Position numbers and translations under genes: made by a program | Notes under the pieces: model-generated | The model's input: the letters and a program-made list of their open reading frames with translations, nothing else | What the model was told of the DNA's origin: nothing | Databases searched by the model: none | Shown: one piece after another, positions 46,630-56,254 of the stretch | How positions within the stretch are numbered: the stretch's first letter is position 1 | Layout of the letters: each line of letters begins with the position of its first letter | DNA from: Lysobacter soyae | GTDB lineage: Bacteria; Pseudomonadota; Gammaproteobacteria; Xanthomonadales; Xanthomonadaceae | Direction: 5' to 3' | Length of the DNA: 64,000 bases | NCBI RefSeq assembly: GCF_019551435.1 | Contig: NZ_CP080544.1 | Coordinates: 806,001 to 870,000 of the forward strand

Positions 46630-47838
46630 TTATTCGATTTCCAAGCGAACGCCGGCCTTGAAGGTCGCGGCGCACAAACGACCACCCAACCAATAGGCCA
46701 GTTCCGCCGGGTGATGGGCGCGCCAGCAACTGAAATCGGCACGCAGCCCTTCCACTAAACGACCGCGATCCTCCAGACCCAAGGCGCGCGCGGCGTTGAC
46801 CGTGGCACCGCGCAAGACTTCTTCGGGCGTCATGTTGAAATGCGTGCAAGCCAGTTGCATGGCTTGCCGCATTGAACGCAGCGGCGAGGTGCCCGGATTC
46901 AGGTCAGTAGCGATTGCCATCGGCACTTTGTGTTTGCGCAACAGATCGATGGGCGGCAGTTGTGTTTCGCGCAGGACATGAAATGCCCCAGGCAAAAGCA
47001 CGGCAACGGTGCCGGCCTCTTTCATGGCCAATACACCGCTCTCCGAGGTGTATTCAATGTGGTCTGCCGATAGGGCACCGAACTTGGCCGCCAAAGCGGC
47101 GCCGTTGCCGTCGCTGAGTTGGTCGGCATGCAGTTTCACCGGAAGTCCCAAGGTGCGCGCCGCTGACAACATGCGTTCGCCTTGTGCGGGCGTGAAGCCG
47201 ATGCGCTCGACAAATGCGTCCACCGCATCAATCAGACCTTCGGCATGCAGCTCCAACATCCAGGAGATGGCGGCTTCAATGTAGTCATCGGCCCGTCCGG
47301 CGAACGCTTCGGGCAGGGCATGCGCCGCAAGAAAGGTCGTTTTCACCGTTGCGCCGGTTCGCTTGGCGATGGCGCGCGCACAGCGCAGCATTTTTCGTTC
47401 GTTCTCAAGATCCAATCCGTAGCCGGATTTGATTTCGAGTGTGGTCACGCCATCGGCAATCAAGTCGTAAACGCGCGGCAGGGATTGCTCGAGCAGTTCT
47501 TCATAGGACGCCGCGTGTAGCGCTTTCACCGACGAGACGATGCCACCACCCGCTTGCGCGACTTCTTCATAGCTTGCGCCTTTCAAGCGCAGTTCGAATT
47601 CGTGCGCGCGATTGGCTGCGAAGACCGCATGGGTATGGCAGTCGATCAGGCCAGGCGTAATCAAGCCGTTGAACTCGATCTGACGCACAGCGTGTTGTGC
47701 ACTGTCGGGCAGCCCGTCACGTGGGCCGACGTAAGCAATGCGGCCGTCTTTCCAAGCCAGCGCACTGTTCTCGATGCGCCCGAAGCCTTCGTCTTTCGAG
47801 AAGGTGACCAACGTCGCGCCAAAGATCACGCCATCCAT
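46630..47838 (-). CDS. hutI: Imidazolonepropionase HutI
   Basis: 402 aa. An amidohydrolase with the H-x-H metal motif in LIDCHTHAVFA, the HutI mark EIKSGYGLDLENERKMLR, the metal His in KLHADQLSDGNGA, and the metal Asp near IATDLNPGTSP. It opens the ring of imidazolone-5-propionate to formimidoyl-L-glutamate, the third step of histidine breakdown. Divergent from hutF with only 37 bases between start codons. Confidence 0.96.
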   Translation of the reverse strand: MDGVIFGATLVTFSKDEGFGRIENSALAWKDGRIAYVGPRDGLPDSAQHAVRQIEFNGLITPGLIDCHTHAVFAANRAHEFELRLKGASYEEVAQAGGGIVSSVKALHAASYEELLEQSLPRVYDLIADGVTTLEIKSGYGLDLENERKMLRCARAIAKRTGATVKTTFLAAHALPEAFAGRADDYIEAAISWMLELHAEGLIDAVDAFVERIGFTPAQGERMLSAARTLGLPVKLHADQLSDGNGAALAAKFGALSADHIEYTSESGVLAMKEAGTVAVLLPGAFHVLRETQLPPIDLLRKHKVPMAIATDLNPGTSPLRSMRQAMQLACTHFNMTPEEVLRGATVNAARALGLEDRGRLVEGLRADFSCWRAHHPAELAYWLGGRLCAATFKAGVRLEIE

Positions 47839-47875
47839 TCTGCAACCCGCCCCTTGCTACGTCACAATTGACCGG

Positions 47876-49120
47876 ATGATGACATACCCAAGCCCGGTCA
47901 AGGCATTCGGCAACGGCGATTGGTCGCTGCCCGGCATTGCCAATTTGCATTCCCATGCCTTTCAACGCGCGATGGCGGGTCTCGCCGAGCACCAGACCGA
48001 TCCGGCGGATTCGTTCTGGACCTGGCGTGAAGTCATGTACGGATTGGCGCAGAAATTCACGCCTGAGCTGTTGCATGCCGTTGCCAGCCAGTTGTATGTG
48101 GAAATGCTCGAATCGGGCTATACGCATGTGTGCGAATTCCATTATTTGCATCACGAAGCGGACGGTCGACCGCACGCCAACGCGTCCGCGATGTCCGACG
48201 TCTTGATTCAAGCGGCACGCGAAACCGGCATCGGCATGACCCTGTTGCCTGTGCTTTACATGCAAGGCGGATTCGATGGGCGCGCCTTGAACGCGCGGCA
48301 AGCACGTTTCGGACACAGCGTGGATGCCTATTTGAAGTTGCTGCAGAATTTGCGCGTGCACGAAACCGACAATGTGCGAATCGGTTGCGCGTTGCACAGT
48401 TTGCGCGCGGTGCCCGAAGCGGCGATGCGCGAAGTGGTGGCGGCGCTTCCTGACAACGCCCCGATCCACATCCATATCTCGGAACAGTTGCCAGAGGTGG
48501 AAGAGTGCGTGGCGCTGCGCGGTGCCCGTCCCGTTGCATGGTTGTTGGATCATGCGGAGGTCAACCCTCGCTGGACGCTCGTTCATGCCACGCATTTGGA
48601 CGACTCGGAAATCCAAGGTGTGGCCCGTTCGGGCGCCACGGTTGCCATCTGCACCACCACCGAAGGCAATTTGGGTGACGGACTCTTTCCATTCGGCGCC
48701 TACGTCTCGGCGGGCGGCGCCTGGGGCGTGGGTTCGGACTCGCATATCTCCGTGTCACCTGTGGAAGAACTGCGTTGGCTCGAATACGGCCAACGCTTGA
48801 TCACGCACCGTCGCAATGTCGCGAGCCAGGCGGGCGCTCCGAGCACCGGTCTCAATCTGTTGGGGGCAACCTATGCCAGTGCGGCGGCCTCCACCGGATT
48901 CCCGGAGAATCGTGCGGAAGTGATTTTGTCGGGCGATCTGCCGACCTTGGTGGGTGCCACGGAAGAGAACGTGGTTGATCGATGGATCTTCTCCGGCAAT
49001 GTGCCCTGCGTCCGGGAGGTCGTGGTGGATGGCGTCCGCTGGGTGGAATCGGGGCGTCACCGAAACCACGACAGCGTCGCCGCCGGCTACAACCAGGCCA
49101 TCAAGACCCTGCTTGCCTGA
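47876..49120 (+). CDS. hutF: Formimidoylglutamate deiminase HutF
   Basis: 414 aa (a second ATG follows directly). The amidohydrolase core has NLHSHAFQRAMAGLAE (metal H-x-H), the catalytic pair HIHISEQ and LVHATHLDD, and GIGSDSH-like WGVGSDSHISVS. HutF deiminates formimidoylglutamate to N-formylglutamate, the route that needs HutG deformylase next. Compared with the Pseudomonas enzyme (about 450 aa) the N terminus lacks roughly 35 residues of the composite beta domain; the bases upstream are the antisense of hutI, so no longer start exists. Catalytic residues are intact. Confidence 0.92.
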   Translation: MMTYPSPVKAFGNGDWSLPGIANLHSHAFQRAMAGLAEHQTDPADSFWTWREVMYGLAQKFTPELLHAVASQLYVEMLESGYTHVCEFHYLHHEADGRPHANASAMSDVLIQAARETGIGMTLLPVLYMQGGFDGRALNARQARFGHSVDAYLKLLQNLRVHETDNVRIGCALHSLRAVPEAAMREVVAALPDNAPIHIHISEQLPEVEECVALRGARPVAWLLDHAEVNPRWTLVHATHLDDSEIQGVARSGATVAICTTTEGNLGDGLFPFGAYVSAGGAWGVGSDSHISVSPVEELRWLEYGQRLITHRRNVASQAGAPSTGLNLLGATYASAAASTGFPENRAEVILSGDLPTLVGATEENVVDRWIFSGNVPCVREVVVDGVRWVESGRHRNHDSVAAGYNQAIKTLLA

Positions 49121-49135
49121 ACCCGATGACCGCGG

Positions 49136-49166
49136 TTCACCCGCCGTGGCGCAATCGCAGTATCAT
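49136..49166 (+). promoter_or_regulatory. Putative promoter of the arginine operon leader
   Basis: A -10-like TATCAT at 49161-49166 lies seven bases before the leader ATG, with a weak -35-like TTCACC at 49136-49141 (spacer 19). Transcription would begin at or next to the leader ATG. The match is modest and could be coincidence, but a promoter upstream of the 49289 terminator is needed because only 30 bases remain before the first structural gene. Confidence 0.35.
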
Positions 49167-49172
49167 GTGCGC

Positions 49173-49262
49173 ATGCGTACCGTGAGTTTCCATTCCTTTG
49201 CTTGTTCCGCTGCCATGGCCAGCGGCATGACCTCGCGCGCCCGTACCTGCTTGCCCGACTGA
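49173..49262 (+). CDS. Putative leader peptide of the arginine operon
   Basis: 29 codons. The product starts MRTVSFHSFACS and ends MTSRARTCLPD. Arg codons are 2, 22 (CGC, 49236) and 24 (CGT, 49242). No Shine-Dalgarno is seen; a -10-like box seven bases upstream would make the mRNA leaderless. The stop codon overlaps the 5' side of a segment (49263-49270) that can pair with the terminator's left arm. This geometry fits ribosome-controlled attenuation by arginine supply, but translation is not proven and the composition (5 Ala, 5 Ser, 4 Met, 3 Arg, 3 Thr) is not strongly Arg-rich. Confidence 0.45.
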   Translation: MRTVSFHSFACSAAMASGMTSRARTCLPD

Positions 49263-49301
49263 AGCCGGCTCGCATTCTGCTGTTCGCGAAAAAGCCCGGC
49301 T
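49263..49301 (+). promoter_or_regulatory. Putative antiterminator of the arginine leader
   Basis: AGCCGGCT at 49263-49270 is self-complementary and can pair with AGCCCGGCT at 49293-49301, leaving one C bulged, which uses up the left arm of the terminator. A ribosome paused at Arg codons 22-24 would leave 49263-49270 free; a ribosome at the stop codon would cover it and let the terminator form. This is an inference from base pairing. Confidence 0.45.
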
Positions 49302-49323
49302 GCCATGCCGGGCTTTTTTATTT
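49289..49323 (+). terminator. Intrinsic terminator/attenuator ahead of the arginine operon
   Basis: Left arm 49289-49300 (five A then GCCCGGC) pairs with 49307-49318 around a six-base loop, followed by a T-run. It lies between hutF and the acetylornithine carbamoyltransferase gene, 30 bases before its ATG. A simple reading is that it ends hutF; however, no room is left for a separate promoter after it, so it may be a regulated attenuator. Confidence 0.9.
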
Positions 49324-49352
49324 CCGTCACTTTCATCCGCTTGAATACTTTC

Positions 49353-50357
49353 ATGAAGCATTTTCTCAATACCCAAGACTGGTCCCGTCCGGACATTGAT
49401 GCCCTGTTGCGCGACGCGGCAAACTTCAAGCGCCACAAGCTCGGTGACGCGTTGAAGGGCCGAAGTGTCGCATTGGTTTTCTTCAATCCGTCATTGCGAA
49501 CACGCACGAGTTTCGAGCTCGGCACCTTTCAGTTGGGCGGGCATGCCGTTGTGTTGTCGCCGGGCAAGGATGCATGGCCGATCGAGTTCGATTTCGGCAC
49601 GGTGATGGACGGTGAAGCCGAAGAGCACATTGCGGAAGTGGCGCGCGTGTTGGGCCGCTATGCCGATTTGATCGGCGTGCGCGCATTCCCGAAATTCGTT
49701 GATTGGGCACAAGACCGCGAAGATCGCGTGTTGAAGGGATTCGCCAAATATGCAGGCGTACCGGTCATCAACATGGAAACCATCACCCATCCCTGTCAGG
49801 AATTGGCACACGTGCTGGCCCTGCAAGAGCGTTTCGGGACAGAGGACTTGCGCGGCAAGAAGTATGTGCTCACCTGGACTTACCACCCGAAGGCGCTGAA
49901 CACTGCCGTCGCTAACTCCGCGTTGACGATTGCCACGCGCATGGGCATGGACGTGACCTTGCTGTGTCCGACACCTGACTACGTCCTCGATGAGCGTTAC
50001 ATGGGATGGGCAGCGCAAAACGTGTCGGAGAACGGCGGCTCACTGACGGTCAGTCACGATATCGAAAGCGCTTACACCGACGCAGACGTGGTGTATGCGA
50101 AGAGCTGGGGTGCGCTGCCTTATTTCGGTCGTTGGCAAGATGAAAAACCGATTCGGGATCAGTACAAACATTTCATCGTCGACGAAGCAAAGATGGCATT
50201 GACACGTGAAGCGGCGTTTTCGCATTGCTTGCCGCTGCGCCGGAATGTCAAAGCCACCGATGCCGTCATGGATTCGCCCGCGTGCATCGCCATCGAAGAA
50301 GCCGAGAACCGGCTGCACGTTCAAAAGGCCATCATGGCCGCACTCATCGCGCAATAA
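49353..50357 (+). CDS. argF': N-acetyl-L-ornithine carbamoyltransferase (AOTCase)
   Basis: 334 aa with the start at 49353 ([19 protein letters not shown]). The carbamoyl-phosphate loop is [13 protein letters not shown], as in AOTCase, and [13 protein letters not shown] carries the HCLP and the Lys that is carboxylated in the Xanthomonas enzyme. It carbamoylates N-acetylornithine rather than ornithine, giving N-acetylcitrulline. First gene of argF'-argG-deacetylase-NAGK/S-argC-argH. No Shine-Dalgarno sequence is evident, and an intrinsic terminator lies 30 bases upstream. Confidence 0.95.
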
Positions 50358-50367
50358 GGATTTGCCA

Positions 50368-51582
50368 ATGTCAGTCAATGATTCCAAAGACATCGTGCTC
50401 GCGTTTTCCGGCGGGCTGGATACCAGTTTCTGTGTGCCATATTTGAAAGAGCGCGGCTGGAATGTCCACACCGTTTTTGCGGATACCGGCGGCGTCGATG
50501 CCGACGAACGCGCCTATATCGAGCAGCGCGCGGCGGAGTTGGGCGTGGCCAGTCACGTCACCGTGGACGGCGGTCCGGCCATTTGGGAAGGGTTCGTCAA
50601 GCCCTTCGTCTGGGCGGGCGAAGGCTATCAAGCGCAGTATCCGCTGCTCGTCTCAGATCGCTATTTGATTGTGGACGCTGCGTTGGCACGCGCGCAGGCT
50701 TTGGGTACCAATGCGATTGCCCACGGATGTACCGGCATGGGTAACGATCAAGTGCGTTTTGATTTGGCCGTCAAAGCCAGTGGCGACTATCGCATCGTTG
50801 CACCGATTCGCGAAATTCAGAAAGAACACACGCAGACCCGCGCTTACGAGCAAGCTTTCTTGGATGCACGCGGCTTCGGCGTCAGGAGCAAGCAACAGCA
50901 GTACACCATCAACGAAAACGTTCTGGGCGTCACCCTGTCTGGCGCGGAAATCGACGAGTGGAAAGCCCCGGGTGAGAACGCGCGCGGTTGGTGCAAGCCG
51001 CGGGGGGAGTGGCCTGCCGAATCTTTGGAGGTGCGTTTGACCTTCGTCCAGGGTGAAGCGGTCGCCATCAATGGTGCGTCGCTGGCCGGAGACAAGCTCC
51101 TGCAACAATTGAACGCCATGTTCGCCGAATACGGCGTCGGCCGCGGCATGTACACGGGTGACACCACCATCGGGTTGAAAGGGCGGATTGTGTATGAAGC
51201 GCCGGGTCTGACCGCGCTGCTGGTCGCCCATCGCGCGTTGGAAGAAGCCGTCCTCAGCAAACAACAGAATCGATTCAAGCCGGAGCTCGCCCGCAAGTGG
51301 GTCGAATTGGTCTACGAAGGATTCTTCCACGATCCGCTGAAGACCGATATCGAAAGCTTCCTGAAATCCAGCCAGCGGATGGTGAACGGTGACGTCGTGC
51401 TCCAGACCAGTGGCGCGCATGTGGACGCGGTTGCCGTGACTTCGCCGCATTTGCTGCAGTCGAAGGGCGCCACTTATGCACAGAGTGCTGACTGGGGCGT
51501 GGAAGAAGCCGAGGGATTCATCAAGCTGTTCGGCATGAGCAGCACTTTGTGGGCCGAAGTAAATGCCGACGCCAATGGCTGA
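50368..51582 (+). CDS. argG: Argininosuccinate synthase ArgG
   Basis: 404 aa. The ATP pyrophosphatase loop is [13 protein letters not shown]. Other motifs are [13 protein letters not shown] and [19 protein letters not shown]. It joins citrulline and aspartate using ATP. The distance to the upstream gene is ten bases; the downstream deacetylase overlaps its end by 20 bases. The sequence after residue 150 matches the shorter (about 400 aa) ArgG form. Confidence 0.97.
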
Positions 51583-52666
51583 TATCGATCTCATGCCTGA
51601 CGTGGTTGCTCATTTGCGGGCACTGGTGTCGTTCGATACGCGCAATCCGCCGCGTTTGTTCGATGAGGCCGGCATTTTTGCGTATGTCCGTGCGCAATTG
51701 CCGGATTTCGACATCGAAGTGCGCGACTTGGGTGCCGGTGCTGTGTATTTGTACGCGAAGCGCGGAGCGCCTGCTGTTCTGTTCAACGTGCATTTGGACA
51801 CCGTCCCCGATTCCCCTGCGTGGTCACAAGATCCATTCGTGCTGACTGTGGGTGAAGACCGCGCGGTGGGGCTCGGCGCTTGTGATATCAAAGGTGCGGC
51901 CGCGGCGTTGATTGCGGCGTCGCGGGCGGTGAAGGGCGACGTCGCTTTCCTTTTCAGCAGTGATGAAGAGGCGAACGACGCACGCTGCATCGCAGATTTC
52001 CTGCAACGCAATGAATCGTTCGAGGCTGTGCTCGTCGCCGAGCCGACCGGTTGCGAGGCCGTTGCGGTACACCGCGGGATTTCGTCGGTGCGTGTCGAAT
52101 TCCATGGCGAAGCCGGCCACGCTTCAAACGCACACAATCCAAGTGCGGTCCACAAAGCGATTCGTTGGGGCGCTGCCTGTCTTGACTTGATTGAAGCCAA
52201 GGCCGAAGAGGAGTTCGCGGGTTTGCGCGGTACGCGCTTCAATATCGGCAAAGTGCAAGGCGGCATCAAAGGCAATGTGATCGCCCCTTCGGCGGAGTGC
52301 CGCTTCGGCTTCCGTCCGCTGCCCTCACAAGACATGGATGCCTTGCACGCGCAGTTCCGTGCCGCAGCCGGCGAGGGCGCATCATACGAGGAATTGTTTC
52401 GCGGCCCTTCTTTGCCGGTCGGGCCTGACAGCGACGTCCGGCGTGAACGCGCCGAAGCGGTAGCAAAGCGATTCGGGATTCCGGTTCGGGCCCCCGTGGA
52501 CTTCTGGACCGAGGCTTCCCTGTTTTCGCAGGCGGGCTACGACACCTTGGTGTTCGGTCCGGGGGACATTGCACAAGCACACAGCGCCGACGAATGGGTC
52601 GCGCTGTCCGATCTTGCGCGGTATTCGCAACACGTCGTACGTATCATCGGAGCACAGCAGGCATGA
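51563..52666 (+). CDS. argE: N-acetylcitrulline/acetylornithine deacetylase (ArgE-like, M20)
   Basis: 367 aa. An M20 metallopeptidase-like enzyme: first metal His in [11 protein letters not shown] (H-x-D), the bridging Asp in [14 protein letters not shown], the Glu pair in [11 protein letters not shown], a later Glu/Asp near VLVAEPTG, and the C-terminal His in [15 protein letters not shown]. In xanthomonads this gene is an N-acetyl-L-citrulline deacetylase, which returns citrulline to ArgG. A second ATG (MADIDLM) lies four codons in. Its stop overlaps the next gene (ATGA). Confidence 0.93.
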
Positions 52667-54009
52667 CGCCGTTGAATCAACAAGCCGCCGTCCACGATCC
52701 GCAAACACGCCAGACGATTGTGCGGCTGCTGTCCAGCATGGGCAGCGCCAAAGAGATCACTCAGTATCTCAAGCGCTATTCGCAGCTTGAAGCCGCGCGC
52801 TTTGCCGTGGTGAAAGTTGGCGGCGCAGTGTTGCGTGACGATTTGGAAGCGCTGTCCAGCGCCTTGGCGTTTTTGCAGGATGTGGGACTTACACCCATCG
52901 TGATTCACGGCGCCGGACCCCAGCTCGATGCGGCCTTGGCAGATCTTGGCATTGAGAAGCAGATCAAGAACGGCCTGCGTGTGACCACGCCTGAGGTTTT
53001 GGCGGTCGTACGCAAGGTGCTTCATGCGCAAAATTTGGCCTTGGTGGAAGACTTGCAAGCGCGCGATGCGCGGGCAACATCCATTGTTTCCGGCGTGTTC
53101 GAAGCGCAGCTGCTGGATGCCGACGAATACGGTTTGGTAGGCGAGGTATCGGATGTCGAGCTGGGCCCGATTCGCGCAAGTTTGAAGGCCGGATCCATTC
53201 CCGTGCTCGCATGCCTTGGTGAAACGGCGAGCGGTCAGATCGTCAATATCAACGCGGATTTCGCCGCCAATGCGTTGGTGGCCAAACTCCAGCCGGACAA
53301 AATCGTTTTCCTCACCGAAACCGGCGGCCTGTTGAATGCCGAAGGCGAGATCATTGATTCGATCAATCTCTCCTCGGAGTACGAAGAATTGATGGCGGCC
53401 GATTGGATCAATGGCGGCATGCGGGTGAAAATCCAGCAAATCAAAGCGCTGTTGGATAGCGTGCCCCTGTCTTCCTCCGTGTCGATCACCAAGCCGGCTG
53501 AACTTGCCAAGGAATTGTTCACCCATCGCGGGTCGGGCACCTTGGTGCGTCGCGGTGAGCGCGTGCTTGTCGCATCGCGATGGGACGCGTTTGACATCCC
53601 GCGGCTGCGCGAGTTGATTGAGTCCGCCTTCGGTCGAAAATTGACCGCCGACTATTTTGACGAGGCGCGGTTGCTCAAGGCCTACGTCAGTGAAAACTAC
53701 CGGGCGGCACTGATTTTGACGCAAGGCGCCGAGGGCGTTCCTTATCTGGATAAATTTGCTGTCTTGGACGACGCCCAGGGAGAAGGGTTGGGGCGTGCGG
53801 TTTGGCACGTCATGCGTGGCGAGACGCCAAGCTTGTACTGGCGTTCGCGGCGAGCGAATCCGGTGAATGTGTTCTACGACGCGGAAGCGGACGGAAGCTA
53901 CAAACGCGATCCATGGACGGCATTTTGGTTTGGCGTCGAAGCGTTCGACAAAATCGAGCGTTTGGTTCGCGATGCGTTGTCGAGGCCGGCCACCTTGGAG
54001 GCGGTATGA
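52663..54009 (+). CDS. argB: Bifunctional acetylglutamate kinase/N-acetylglutamate synthase
   Basis: 448 aa. The amino-acid kinase domain (about 30-285) has [22 protein letters not shown] and ITETGGL-like [10 protein letters not shown]; the C-terminal N-acetyltransferase (GNAT) domain (about 300-440) has [12 protein letters not shown] near the acetyl-CoA site. This fusion, as in Xanthomonas, makes N-acetylglutamate and phosphorylates it, and it is the arginine-sensitive step. It couples to the deacetylase and argC by ATGA overlaps. Confidence 0.95.
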
Positions 54010-54959
54010 CGCTGAAAATCGGCTTAGTGGGCGCGCGCGGGCATGTCGGCGAAGCGCTGATCCGCATCATCGACGCGCATCCGGATCTCTCCTTGGGATT
54101 CGTTTCGTCAAGAGAGCGGGTCGGCAAGCCATTGTCGGATTTTTTTCCCGGCTTGAAGCAGGATCTGGTTTATAGCCAAGTCGCCTTTGACGAGGTGGGT
54201 CGACAGCCCGTTGATGTGTTCGTGCTTGCGCTACCCAATGGCATGGCCGCGGACTGCGTGTCTTCCATAGAACGCTTTCACCCTGACGCGCTGGTGGTAG
54301 ACCTGTCGGCCGATTACCGGTTTGATTCGGCGTGGTATTACGGCTTGCCCGAACTGACGCGCACGCACGCGGCGGGTGCGCGTCGGATCAGCAACCCGGG
54401 CTGCTATGCGAGCGCGATGCAGTTGGCCATCCACCCCATGCGCGACGCGTTGGACGGTGCCGTGCAGTGTTTCGGCGTGTCCGGCTACTCCGGCGCCGGC
54501 ACGACGCCAAGCGATAAGAATGACCTCCGCAAATTGGCTGACAATCTAATGCCCTATGCGTTGGTCAATCACATTCACGAGCGTGAGGTGGCCAGGCATT
54601 GCGCGCCGGTTGAATTCATACCGCATGTCGCGCCGCATTTCCGCGGCATCACCATGACATGCAATTTGCATCTGTCGCGGGGATTCGAGGCCTCGGAAGT
54701 TCGCGAGAGATTTGAATCGGCGTATGCGAACGAGCCTTTGATTCACCTGCAGTCCGATCCGCCATGGGTCAGTGACATCGCCGGCAAGCATGGCGTCCGC
54801 ATCGGCGGCTTTACGTTGGACGCATCCGGCAGGCGACTGGTCGTCGTATCGGTGCTCGACAACTTGCTCAAAGGCGCGGCGACCCAAGCCATGCAAAACA
54901 TCAACATTGCCTTGGGGATCGATGAATTCACGGGCTTGGAACTGGAGAAGACAGCATGA
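54006..54959 (+). CDS. argC: N-acetyl-gamma-glutamyl-phosphate reductase ArgC
   Basis: 317 aa. NADP loop [17 protein letters not shown]; catalytic Cys in [13 protein letters not shown]; catalytic-region His in HVAPHFRGI. It reduces N-acetylglutamyl-phosphate to the semialdehyde. Start ATG overlaps the upstream stop (ATGA) and its own stop overlaps argH. Length is in the short-type ArgC range. Confidence 0.96.
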
Positions 54960-56254
54960 GCGATTTGTTATGGCAAAAATCGGGTGTTGTCATTGATGAG
55001 TCGATCCAGAACTTCTTGGCCGGTGACGACGTACTGTTGGATCGCGAGTTCATCCGCTTCGACATCGAAGCAAGTCTCGCGCACGCGAGCGGTCTTCAAC
55101 GCATTGGTGTGCTGACGGAAAACGAATCTCTGGCCATTCGCCAAGCCTTGTTGGCGCTGGACGCCGATATCGTCGAAGGCCGGTTTGTCCTCGATGCGCG
55201 CTATGAAGACATGCATTCTGCGATTGAGGCACGCCTGATCGAGCAATTGGGTGAGACCGGCAAAAAAATCCACACCGGGCGCAGCCGCAATGATCAAGTG
55301 TTGGTCGCGACGCGATTGTGGTTGAAGGCGCGACTGACGACATTGCAGCGCCTCTGCGTCGAGGTCGCCGACGTGGCACTTTCGCGCGCCGAATCCGAAC
55401 AATGGCCCCTGCCCGGATACACACACATGCAGCGCGCCATGGTGTCTTCTACGGCGATGTGGTGGAGCGCGTGGGCGGAGTCCTTCCTCGATTCGGCGCA
55501 ACGTGCGGGGGATACGCGTGCCTTGATCGATGCGAATCCGCTGGGCACGGCCGCCGGCTACGGGGTGAATTTGCCCTTGGATCGTGCGCACGTGACGGAG
55601 GTCTTGGGCTTTGCACGCATGCAGATCTCGCCGATCGCAACGCAATTGTCACGCGGTAAATATGAGCTTGCGGCGCTCGAAGCTTTGGGCAGCGCGACGC
55701 TGGACTTGCGCCGTTTGGCCTGGGATTTGAGTCTCTTCACCAGCGCCGAGTTCGGCTTTGTCGGCTTACCCGCGCAATACACCACAGGCAGTTCCTTGAT
55801 GCCGAACAAGCGCAATCCGGATGTGGTCGAGCTGATGCGTGCCAGCCACGCCAGCGTCGCTGCCGCACGGACCGAAATCGAGCAGCTGTTATCTCTGCCG
55901 ACGGGCTACCACCGCGATCTGCAGTCGAGCAAAGGGGCGATTTTCCATGGATTCGGTCGTGGCTTGGCAGCGCTCAATCTCTTGCCGGCGTTGCTCCGCG
56001 CGCTTGAATGGAAGCCCGAGGCCATGCGCGCGGCGTTGGAGCCGTCGATGTATGCCACCGACCTTGCCATTGAACTGGCGGCAAAGGGCATGCCTTTCCG
56101 GGATGCCTATGTTGAAGTCGCGAATCCGCAACGCTGGGAAGCGGGCGATCCCGAGGTCAGTTTGTCAGCGCGCGTGTCACCCGGGGGGCATGGTGCACTT
56201 TCACTTGAAGCGTTGCGTGCGCGTTTGACCTCACTCCAAGCGGAAGGCGTCTGA
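54956..56254 (+). CDS. argH: Argininosuccinate lyase ArgH
   Basis: 432 aa. Fumarase/aspartase superfamily: [17 protein letters not shown] region (two of three conserved segments), GYTHMQRA, and the superfamily signature [18 protein letters not shown]. It splits argininosuccinate into arginine and fumarate. Last gene of the arginine operon; the usual proB-proA of Xanthomonas is not next. The tail overlaps ogt (minus strand) by 24 bases. Confidence 0.97.

Follow-up and report, generated by a model that had tools for sequence, protein, structure and literature searches.

A predicted ribosome-mediated attenuator of the arginine biosynthesis operon, widely conserved in the Xanthomonadales and derived in Lysobacter soyae

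INTRODUCTION

The trp, his, thr, leu, ilv and phe leaders of proteobacteria are ribosome-mediated amino acid attenuators, and arginine operons are the textbook case of control by the ArgR repressor. The leader described here precedes the arginine biosynthesis operon in a window of 64,000 nucleotides, the whole stretch of Lysobacter soyae DNA that was analysed (order Xanthomonadales, family Xanthomonadaceae, class Gammaproteobacteria). Like the classical attenuators, it combines a short ORF, judged to be translated and carrying codons for the end product, with a candidate 1:2 hairpin, alternative 2:3 and 3:4 pairings and an intrinsic terminator before the first gene. Unlike them, it has Arg codons read by one isoacceptor with CGA last, a predicted near-leaderless start, and a peptide core conserved beyond the control codons.

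Three described systems are closest to it. The orf34 leader of speF-potE in Salmonella (SpeFL) uses two Arg codons to sense arginine via ribosome pausing, according to excerpts of its description (PMC6386406). The arg leader is likewise a small ORF with Arg codons; it has an intrinsic terminator, however, whereas the excerpts on SpeFL describe Rho-dependent termination, RNase G, occlusion of a ribosome site and ornithine decarboxylase as the target. SpeFL/DUF2618 (PF10940) was not matched by any of five leader peptides, that of the window included, for which no Pfam and no NCBIfam family was returned at E values up to 1. In Sinorhizobium meliloti, the attenuator RNA of rnTrpL/peTrpL begins with the leader ATG, was found as an sRNA and has reported roles in trans, as given in excerpts of PMC7298713. 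The arg leader resembles it in its start at or near the ATG and in its sRNA form; the amino acid of rnTrpL is tryptophan. The carA leader of Pseudomonas comprises a leader peptide with proposed pyrimidine-linked attenuation, arginine control being transcriptional (excerpts of PMC4997734), and is similar, by description, in that an arginine/pyrimidine gene is preceded by a peptide for which attenuation has been proposed.

No description of an attenuator for the arginine operon of this order was present among the literature matches listed, which comprised titles and abstract openings with few subscription journals. The word 'arginine' is absent from the searchable portion of Naville and Gautheret 2010 (PMC2965389), as are 'Xanthomonas' and 'argF' from that of Brewer 2021 (PMC8632094).

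RESULTS

A predicted attenuator ahead of the L. soyae arginine operon

The features of the locus are collected in Table 1. The initial annotation had described a 29-codon ORF with Arg codons at positions 22 and 24, followed by an intrinsic terminator ahead of the carbamoyltransferase ATG. Both are as described in the window sequence, from which the encoded peptide reads MRTVSFHSFACSAAMASGMTSRARTCLPD; a third Arg codon, at position 2, was absent from the earlier list. The spacing between the end of Arg24 (49244) and the start of segment 2 (49263) is 18 nt, as in most relatives.

Table 1. Coordinates of the leader elements and arginine genes within the window
Feature	Position	Strand	Details and basis
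Possible leader promoter	49136..49166	+	TTCACC 49136-49141, 19 nt, TATCAT 49161-49166, 6 nt before ATG
Leader ORF	49173..49262	+	ATG start, 29 codons + TGA; homologous core in 111/111 family loci; core pN/pS 0.05
Control codons	49236..49244	+	Arg22 CGC 49236-49238, Arg24 CGT 49242-49244; sequence reading
Candidate 1:2 hairpin	49237..49273	+	Prediction only, -8.2 kcal/mol
Segment 2, antiterminator left arm	49263..49270	+	AGCCGGCT; pairing prediction; position of relatives' GCYGGG
Segment 3, antiterminator right arm = terminator left arm	49293..49301	+	CCCRGC in relatives
Intrinsic terminator (3:4)	49288..49323	+	Stem 49288-49300/49307-49319, 13 bp, -23.1 kcal/mol, then T-run
N-acetylornithine carbamoyltransferase, first gene of the operon	49353..50357	+	NCBIfam NF003384, 615.8 bits, cut-off 288
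Probable operon remainder: argG, argE-type deacetylase, acetylglutamate kinase (argB type), argC, argH	50368..56254	+	NCBIfam

Fold prediction reproduced the pairing, claimed earlier, of segment 2 with the left arm of the terminator through one bulged C. With the right arm of the terminator withheld, the antiterminator region is predicted at -13.9 kcal/mol, which is weaker than the terminator. The T-run of the latter begins at 49314 and holds a single A at 49320. A scan of the window with consensus promoters and terminators returned neither the leader promoter nor this terminator. The promoter candidate has a spacing that is not ideal, at a position matching the hexamers of relatives; as its TATCAT lies so close ahead of the leader ATG, the mRNA of the window species is expected to begin at or near that codon.

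The genes from 49353 to 56254 form a probable operon, in which the arg ORFs are adjacent or overlapping. The overlap of neighbouring ORFs suggests translational coupling. With starts as annotated, the overlaps listed are 51563-51582 (argG and argE type) and 52594-52666 (argE type and argB type). The arg operon is adjoined at 46630-49120 by a hutI-like gene on the minus strand, judged from the look of its ORF, and by hutF on the plus strand.

Taken on its own, the attenuator anatomy of the window is no better than chance. The fold of the whole interval has a z-score of -0.94, with 33 of 200 shuffles folding equally well, and 9 of 50 shuffled window spacers complement the terminator arm as well as the real one. 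All 14 Rfam matches in the window fell under their cut-offs, and the two best scores (rnk_pseudo; anti-hemB, E 0.0026) derive for the most part from the hairpin of the terminator. The element is lifted far beyond chance by its conservation across the order, the window's own tests not being significant; the classical attenuation logic put forward at the outset is supported by this comparison across relatives rather than by the window.

Conservation across the order and the apparently derived copy of L. soyae

The family set consists of 111 loci chosen as best matches rather than as a random draw: the best 80 from named genomes, the best 30 from a search of family genomes that gave a match in 289 of 297, and the window's own, the window being counted twice (L001 and L082). 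The leader ORF, whose presence in related genomes the initial annotation had taken as a test of its reading, is found in all of them, with the core [T/A]SRAR ahead of the acetylornithine carbamoyltransferase gene in 111/111 (TSRAR in 110, ASRAR in L100). Of 299 order genomes, 160 contain the strict DNA pattern GGNATGACNTCNCGNGCNCGNCG, once in each, and none contains a reversed control pattern; in a sample of the class the forward pattern occurs in 2 of 274 genomes, both members of the window's family. Where loci around further pattern matches were read, in the window's and other families, the carbamoyltransferase gene follows in 43 of 43.

The 154 loci contain 142 unique leaders, in which A(-7), A(-4), M(-1), T0, S1, R2, A3, R4 and R5 are conserved at 99–100% and G(-2) at 95%. 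An intrinsic terminator separates the leader ORF from the first gene in every one of the 142.

The window itself is unmatched by GGNATGACNTCNCGNGCNCGNCG and, with 18 other leaders of the 142, has no standard GCYGGG segment 2. It keeps two of the three core Arg codons: in the window species and its sister L083, the third (CGA) and the following Pro have been lost, and the codon found in its place is ACC (Thr). From this loss, the window copy is read as derived, and it may be a weaker attenuator than those of its relatives. L083, the closest relative, has RARTR (upstream of its position 1500) where the window has RARTC, with Arg (CGC) in place of Cys (TGC).

Geometry and pairing of the alternative hairpins

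Between the last core Arg codon and segment 2 there are 18 nt in 102 of 137 leaders; of the 131 leaders counted for the stop codon, 100 have its end 9 nt downstream of the point at which segment 2 begins. Given the size of the ribosome footprint, these spacings imply that a ribosome on the Arg codons would free segment 2 and that a ribosome at the stop codon would cover it. In the proposed mechanism, transcription would start at or just before the leader ATG, with immediate translation of the leader. When charged tRNA-Arg (the ACG-anticodon isoacceptor) is scarce, the ribosome would stall on the Arg codons and cover the start of the 1:2 hairpin. Segment 2, which in most leaders lies 18 nt further on, could then pair with segment 3; the terminator would be blocked and the arg genes transcribed. 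When arginine is plentiful, the ribosome would reach the stop codon in or beside segment 2 and cover this segment, and the 3:4 terminator would form. Four parts of this scheme are inferred: where transcription starts in the window species, that the ribosome stalls, that the isoacceptor is what is sensed, and which way the response goes.

Segment 2 occupies its standard place in 123 of the 142 leaders, and in 121 of these the 2:3 pairing is intact. The arrangement is GCTGGG/CCCAGC/GCTGGG in 87 and GCCGGG/CCCGGC/GCCGGG in 22, a further 12 contain G-U pairs and two (L081 and L150) are mismatched. In 69 family-type sequences, every one of the seven 2:3 pairs is retained 64–69 times, and in the 23 sequences of the f12 group six pairs are retained throughout. 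On a FastTree protein tree, the variable paired column changes 5–7 times and yields one well-supported independent pair; the sign test based on this tree, for that one column, was not significant, the independent events being too few. As the tree provides one such pair, the case for covariation rests on the pair counts, on the 1:2 arms and on the distant families. Among 72 unique family-type arm pairs, the 1:2 arms have a mean score of 11.94, against 11.01 (sd 0.17) for shuffles of partners, none of 300 reaching the observed value. Loci in which GCYGGG was missing close to codon 12, such as the window, were excluded from this test. The 20 arm pairs of f12 gave no covariation, 222 of 300 shuffles being as good. 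In family f8 (L177, L197 and L202) the segments are different and still match each other (GCCAGGTT/AACCTGG(C/T)/GCCAGG). For the compensatory changes envisaged in the initial annotation, the 2:3 pairs, the family-type 1:2 arms and the f8 segments speak in favour; the tree test and the f12 arms do not.

The leader peptide core and its Arg codons

In a random draw of 70 of the 142 leaders, pN/pS is 0.05 over positions -7, -4, -2, -1, 0 and 1, and 0.32 over the full stretch from -7 to 1. In the same leaders pN is 0 for the Arg block, and the flanking parts have pN/pS values of 1.2, 1.8 and 1.0. With a core ratio this low amid synonymous variation, the core appears to evolve as protein, and the leader is judged by this selection to be translated.

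The ACG-anticodon tRNA-Arg reads CGU, CGC and CGA by the established wobble rules. The three core positions of the 142 leaders contain 424 Arg codons, every one of which belongs to this set; 137 leaders have CGA as the third. The other five are the window and L083, described above, L153 (CGC), and L114 and L115, in which CGA lies one codon later. The carbamoyltransferase genes that follow these leaders have 2635 Arg codons, of which 1.1% are CGA and 12% are CGG, AGG or AGA. At the 40 tRNA places located in the window genome, ARAGORN identifies one tRNA-Arg(ACG) and three other tRNA-Arg. The codon pair CGA-CCG is present in 121 of 142 leaders; in yeast it is strongly inhibitory, and the stalled structure has been solved, according to excerpts of PMC7829197 and PMC6379720.

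Fixation of CGA for base pairing alone was rejected, the A of this codon having no 1:2 partner, by eye, in Xanthomonas/Stenotrophomonas-type loci. Pairing may contribute in the f12 set, since CGAC is able to pair with GTCG in 15 of its 20 arm pairs.

The leader RNA and its counterpart Xoo5

Of 105 family-type loci whose leader starts with ATG, 79 have a hexamer of the form [TG]ANNAT 6–10 nt ahead of that codon and 26 do not; at control positions, which lie inside the leaders and differ in composition from the upstream region, it occurs in 19 of 1050. Upstream of the hexamer, all 79 also carry TTG or TTC, at a spacing of 17 nt in 76 cases, and TG occupies the extended position in 77. No such promoter is apparent, by eye, right ahead of the leader ATG in the f12 loci. 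The initial annotation had found no room for a promoter after the terminator; none is seen there in the sequence, and the hexamers place the promoter-like element ahead of the leader instead.

These observations bear on a reading in which the terminator belongs to the upstream gene hutF, the small ORF arose by chance and the arg genes have a promoter of their own further downstream. The end of hutF at 49120, 52 nt before the leader ORF, is what suggests it. The ORF is nevertheless under protein-level selection and has a promoter ahead of it in most family loci, and we regard this reading as scarcely credible. As owner of the terminator hutF was also rejected on gene order, a homologue lying within 3 kb upstream in 3 of 79 relatives (L005, L060 and L077), yet the arg operon keeps its leader and terminator.

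In four of six relatives scanned, Rfam family RF02242 (Xoo5, type sRNA) matched above its cut-off over the leader ORF. The four matches (L049:5729-5852, L003:5765-5889, L017:5806-5929 and L007:5739-5860) all end before the terminator. None of 12 other loci reached the cut-off, and the window scored 14.5 bits over 25 model positions where 50 are needed. The sRNA-Xoo5 of Xanthomonas oryzae is described, in the accessible part of Liang et al. 2011 (PMC3039613), as 124 nt long, with its 5' end mapped by RACE and its 3' end taken from clones. Northern blots in the same source gave bands of ~130 and ~100 nt, both early and the short one alone later. The words argF, arginine, ornithine, terminator and leader are all absent from the text that a word search of PMC3039613 covered.

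Placed by homology on the four relatives, the RACE 5' end from this source falls 2 nt before the leader ATG. Judged by this placement and by the RF02242 matches, Xoo5 is the arginine-operon leader in Xanthomonas relatives, and the Rfam entry probably needs re-typing as a leader. It differs from the leader in being filed as an sRNA gene and in its 3' end, which on the published mapping, as far as accessible, lies 31–35 nt short of the predicted terminator end. The terminated leader is predicted at 155–159 nt in the four relatives, and both this 3' end and the Northern sizes are shorter, a point against the attenuation scheme as drawn; RNA processing would explain the short 3' end.

The discrete RNAs on the X. 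oryzae blot could also be taken to mean that the Xoo5 RNA or the leader peptide acts mainly in trans on other targets, with attenuation secondary. Such a role would suit the Rfam type, the conserved peptide core and the start at or near the ATG, which recalls trpL of S. meliloti as excerpted from PMC7298713. It would leave unaccounted for the carbamoyltransferase gene, which is directly downstream at every leader locus read, and the conserved terminator and antiterminator, and we think it very unlikely.

Arg-run leaders in other families and the distribution of ArgR

Sixty-seven further order genomes, three of them family members, were searched for the carbamoyltransferase; 60 matched and 58 loci were obtained. 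A terminator precedes the gene in 44 of these distant loci, two are cut by a contig end and 12 have none. L162, L174 and L178 carry the carbamoyltransferase and have no terminator within 260 nt upstream.

The family core recurs in three of the 44 (MTSRARRP in two, MASRARRP in one), and L159 has MTSRARRT. Most other leaders are unrelated peptides with Arg runs, for example PRRRRV, LRRRRR, RRRSRRP, VVRRNRRR and HLRRS. At all 44 loci, the ORF selected contains a stretch of 8 residues with 3 or more Arg. Arg clustering exceeds at least 95 of 100 shuffles in 29, none of which has the core, and falls short in 15; the choice favours Arg-rich ORFs ending near segment 2, and the shuffles were made with the same choice. 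A second conserved leader type, GF..LRR......PGWV.V/M, was noted in L169, L170, L194, L200, L205 and L206, and its end, GGCTGGGTT, encodes peptide and segment 2 together.

Codons were counted in 40 of the 44 leaders, leaving out L156-L158 (family core) and L212 (no convincing Arg cluster). CGU, CGC or CGA account for 163 of 169 clustered Arg codons, and CGA for 34%, versus 7.4% of 693 in their genes. In 27 leaders hand-picked for a clear segment 2, the last Arg codon lies 15–18 nt from it in 18, 6–14 nt in eight and 22 nt in one. What the distant leaders have in common is Arg codons and the RNA switch, as attenuation by tRNA charging predicts.

Ribosome arrest that depends on a metabolite has precedents in the fungal arginine attenuator peptide and in SpeFL. 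By analogy, the core A..A.GMTSRARRP might, from within the exit tunnel, arrest the ribosome on binding of arginine, ornithine, acetylornithine or some other metabolite, with the same RNA switch. The residues A-7, A-4, G-2, M-1, T0 and S1 are indeed constrained as amino acids (pN/pS 0.05) and lie within ~11 residues of the Arg codons, the usual reach of arrest motifs. Yet the unrelated leader peptides of other families retain Arg codons alone, and the bias to CGU, CGC and CGA, and to CGA itself, in both leader types favours reading of the codon over the side chain. Sensing by the nascent peptide is for these reasons considered improbable.

The window genome has no match to the ArgR domains PF01316 or PF02863, whereas 9 and 8 of 14 control genomes match. 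Among 101 order genomes PF01316 is matched in eight, all of family f11, the family being unlisted for 73 of those with no match. In the f11 genomes G306, G315, G323 and G354, the ArgR gene lies ~1 kb from the carbamoyltransferase gene, and the four f11 loci read (L180-L183) contain no terminator and no leader. At these loci (G354, G323, G306 and G315, respectively) the carbamoyltransferase is ~40% identical and a coding frame extends, by eye, to the gene. As far as sampled, ArgR and leader attenuation appear to be mutually exclusive. Some order genomes show neither type of control, G300 (locus L162) having no ArgR match and no terminator found, so that the 12 of 58 distant loci with no terminator are not all explained by ArgR; this is a counterpoint to attenuation as the general rule.

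DISCUSSION

The analysis shows the anatomy, conservation, coding constraint, codon bias, spacing and pairings in relatives, together with a complementary distribution of ArgR. On these grounds the element is, with high probability, a ribosome-mediated transcription attenuator of the arginine biosynthesis operon, with a predicted response to arginine. We infer that arginine is what the leader senses; runs of Arg codons are common to the unrelated leader peptides of other families. The mechanism is of a known kind, and comparison of genomes indicates that the arginine attenuator is real and widely conserved in the order, the window copy being derived. Several features appear new: specificity for arginine in the attenuator of a biosynthetic operon, a fixed CGA, a start near the RNA end, a constrained core, a distribution complementary to that of ArgR, and the assignment of Xoo5 to this leader.

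Plain sensing of tRNA does not account for everything, since conservation of the core extends to residues other than those of the Arg codons, a constraint that tRNA sensing alone does not need. The core A..A.GMTSRARRP, added in the window's family and its nearest sister families, probably tunes the stall. More tentatively, and with the balance somewhat against it, a hybrid sensor can be envisaged. The nascent A..A.GMTSRAR, acting in the exit tunnel, would prime the ribosome to stall at a fixed CGA-CCG pair, so that the switch would answer small drops in one tRNA isoacceptor, and the Xoo5 RNA and peptide may act in trans. The core would have been added to an older leader with Arg codons only, still present in sister families, and the order would use an RNA switch where f11 uses ArgR.

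Most families of the order, which includes crop pathogens and hospital organisms, appear to use RNA attenuation instead of ArgR, and an RNA filed as an sRNA, Xoo5, would gain a mechanism and a testable function. The leaders also offer a natural experiment on why one leader clade has fixed a peptide core and a rare codon where its sisters have only a run of Arg.
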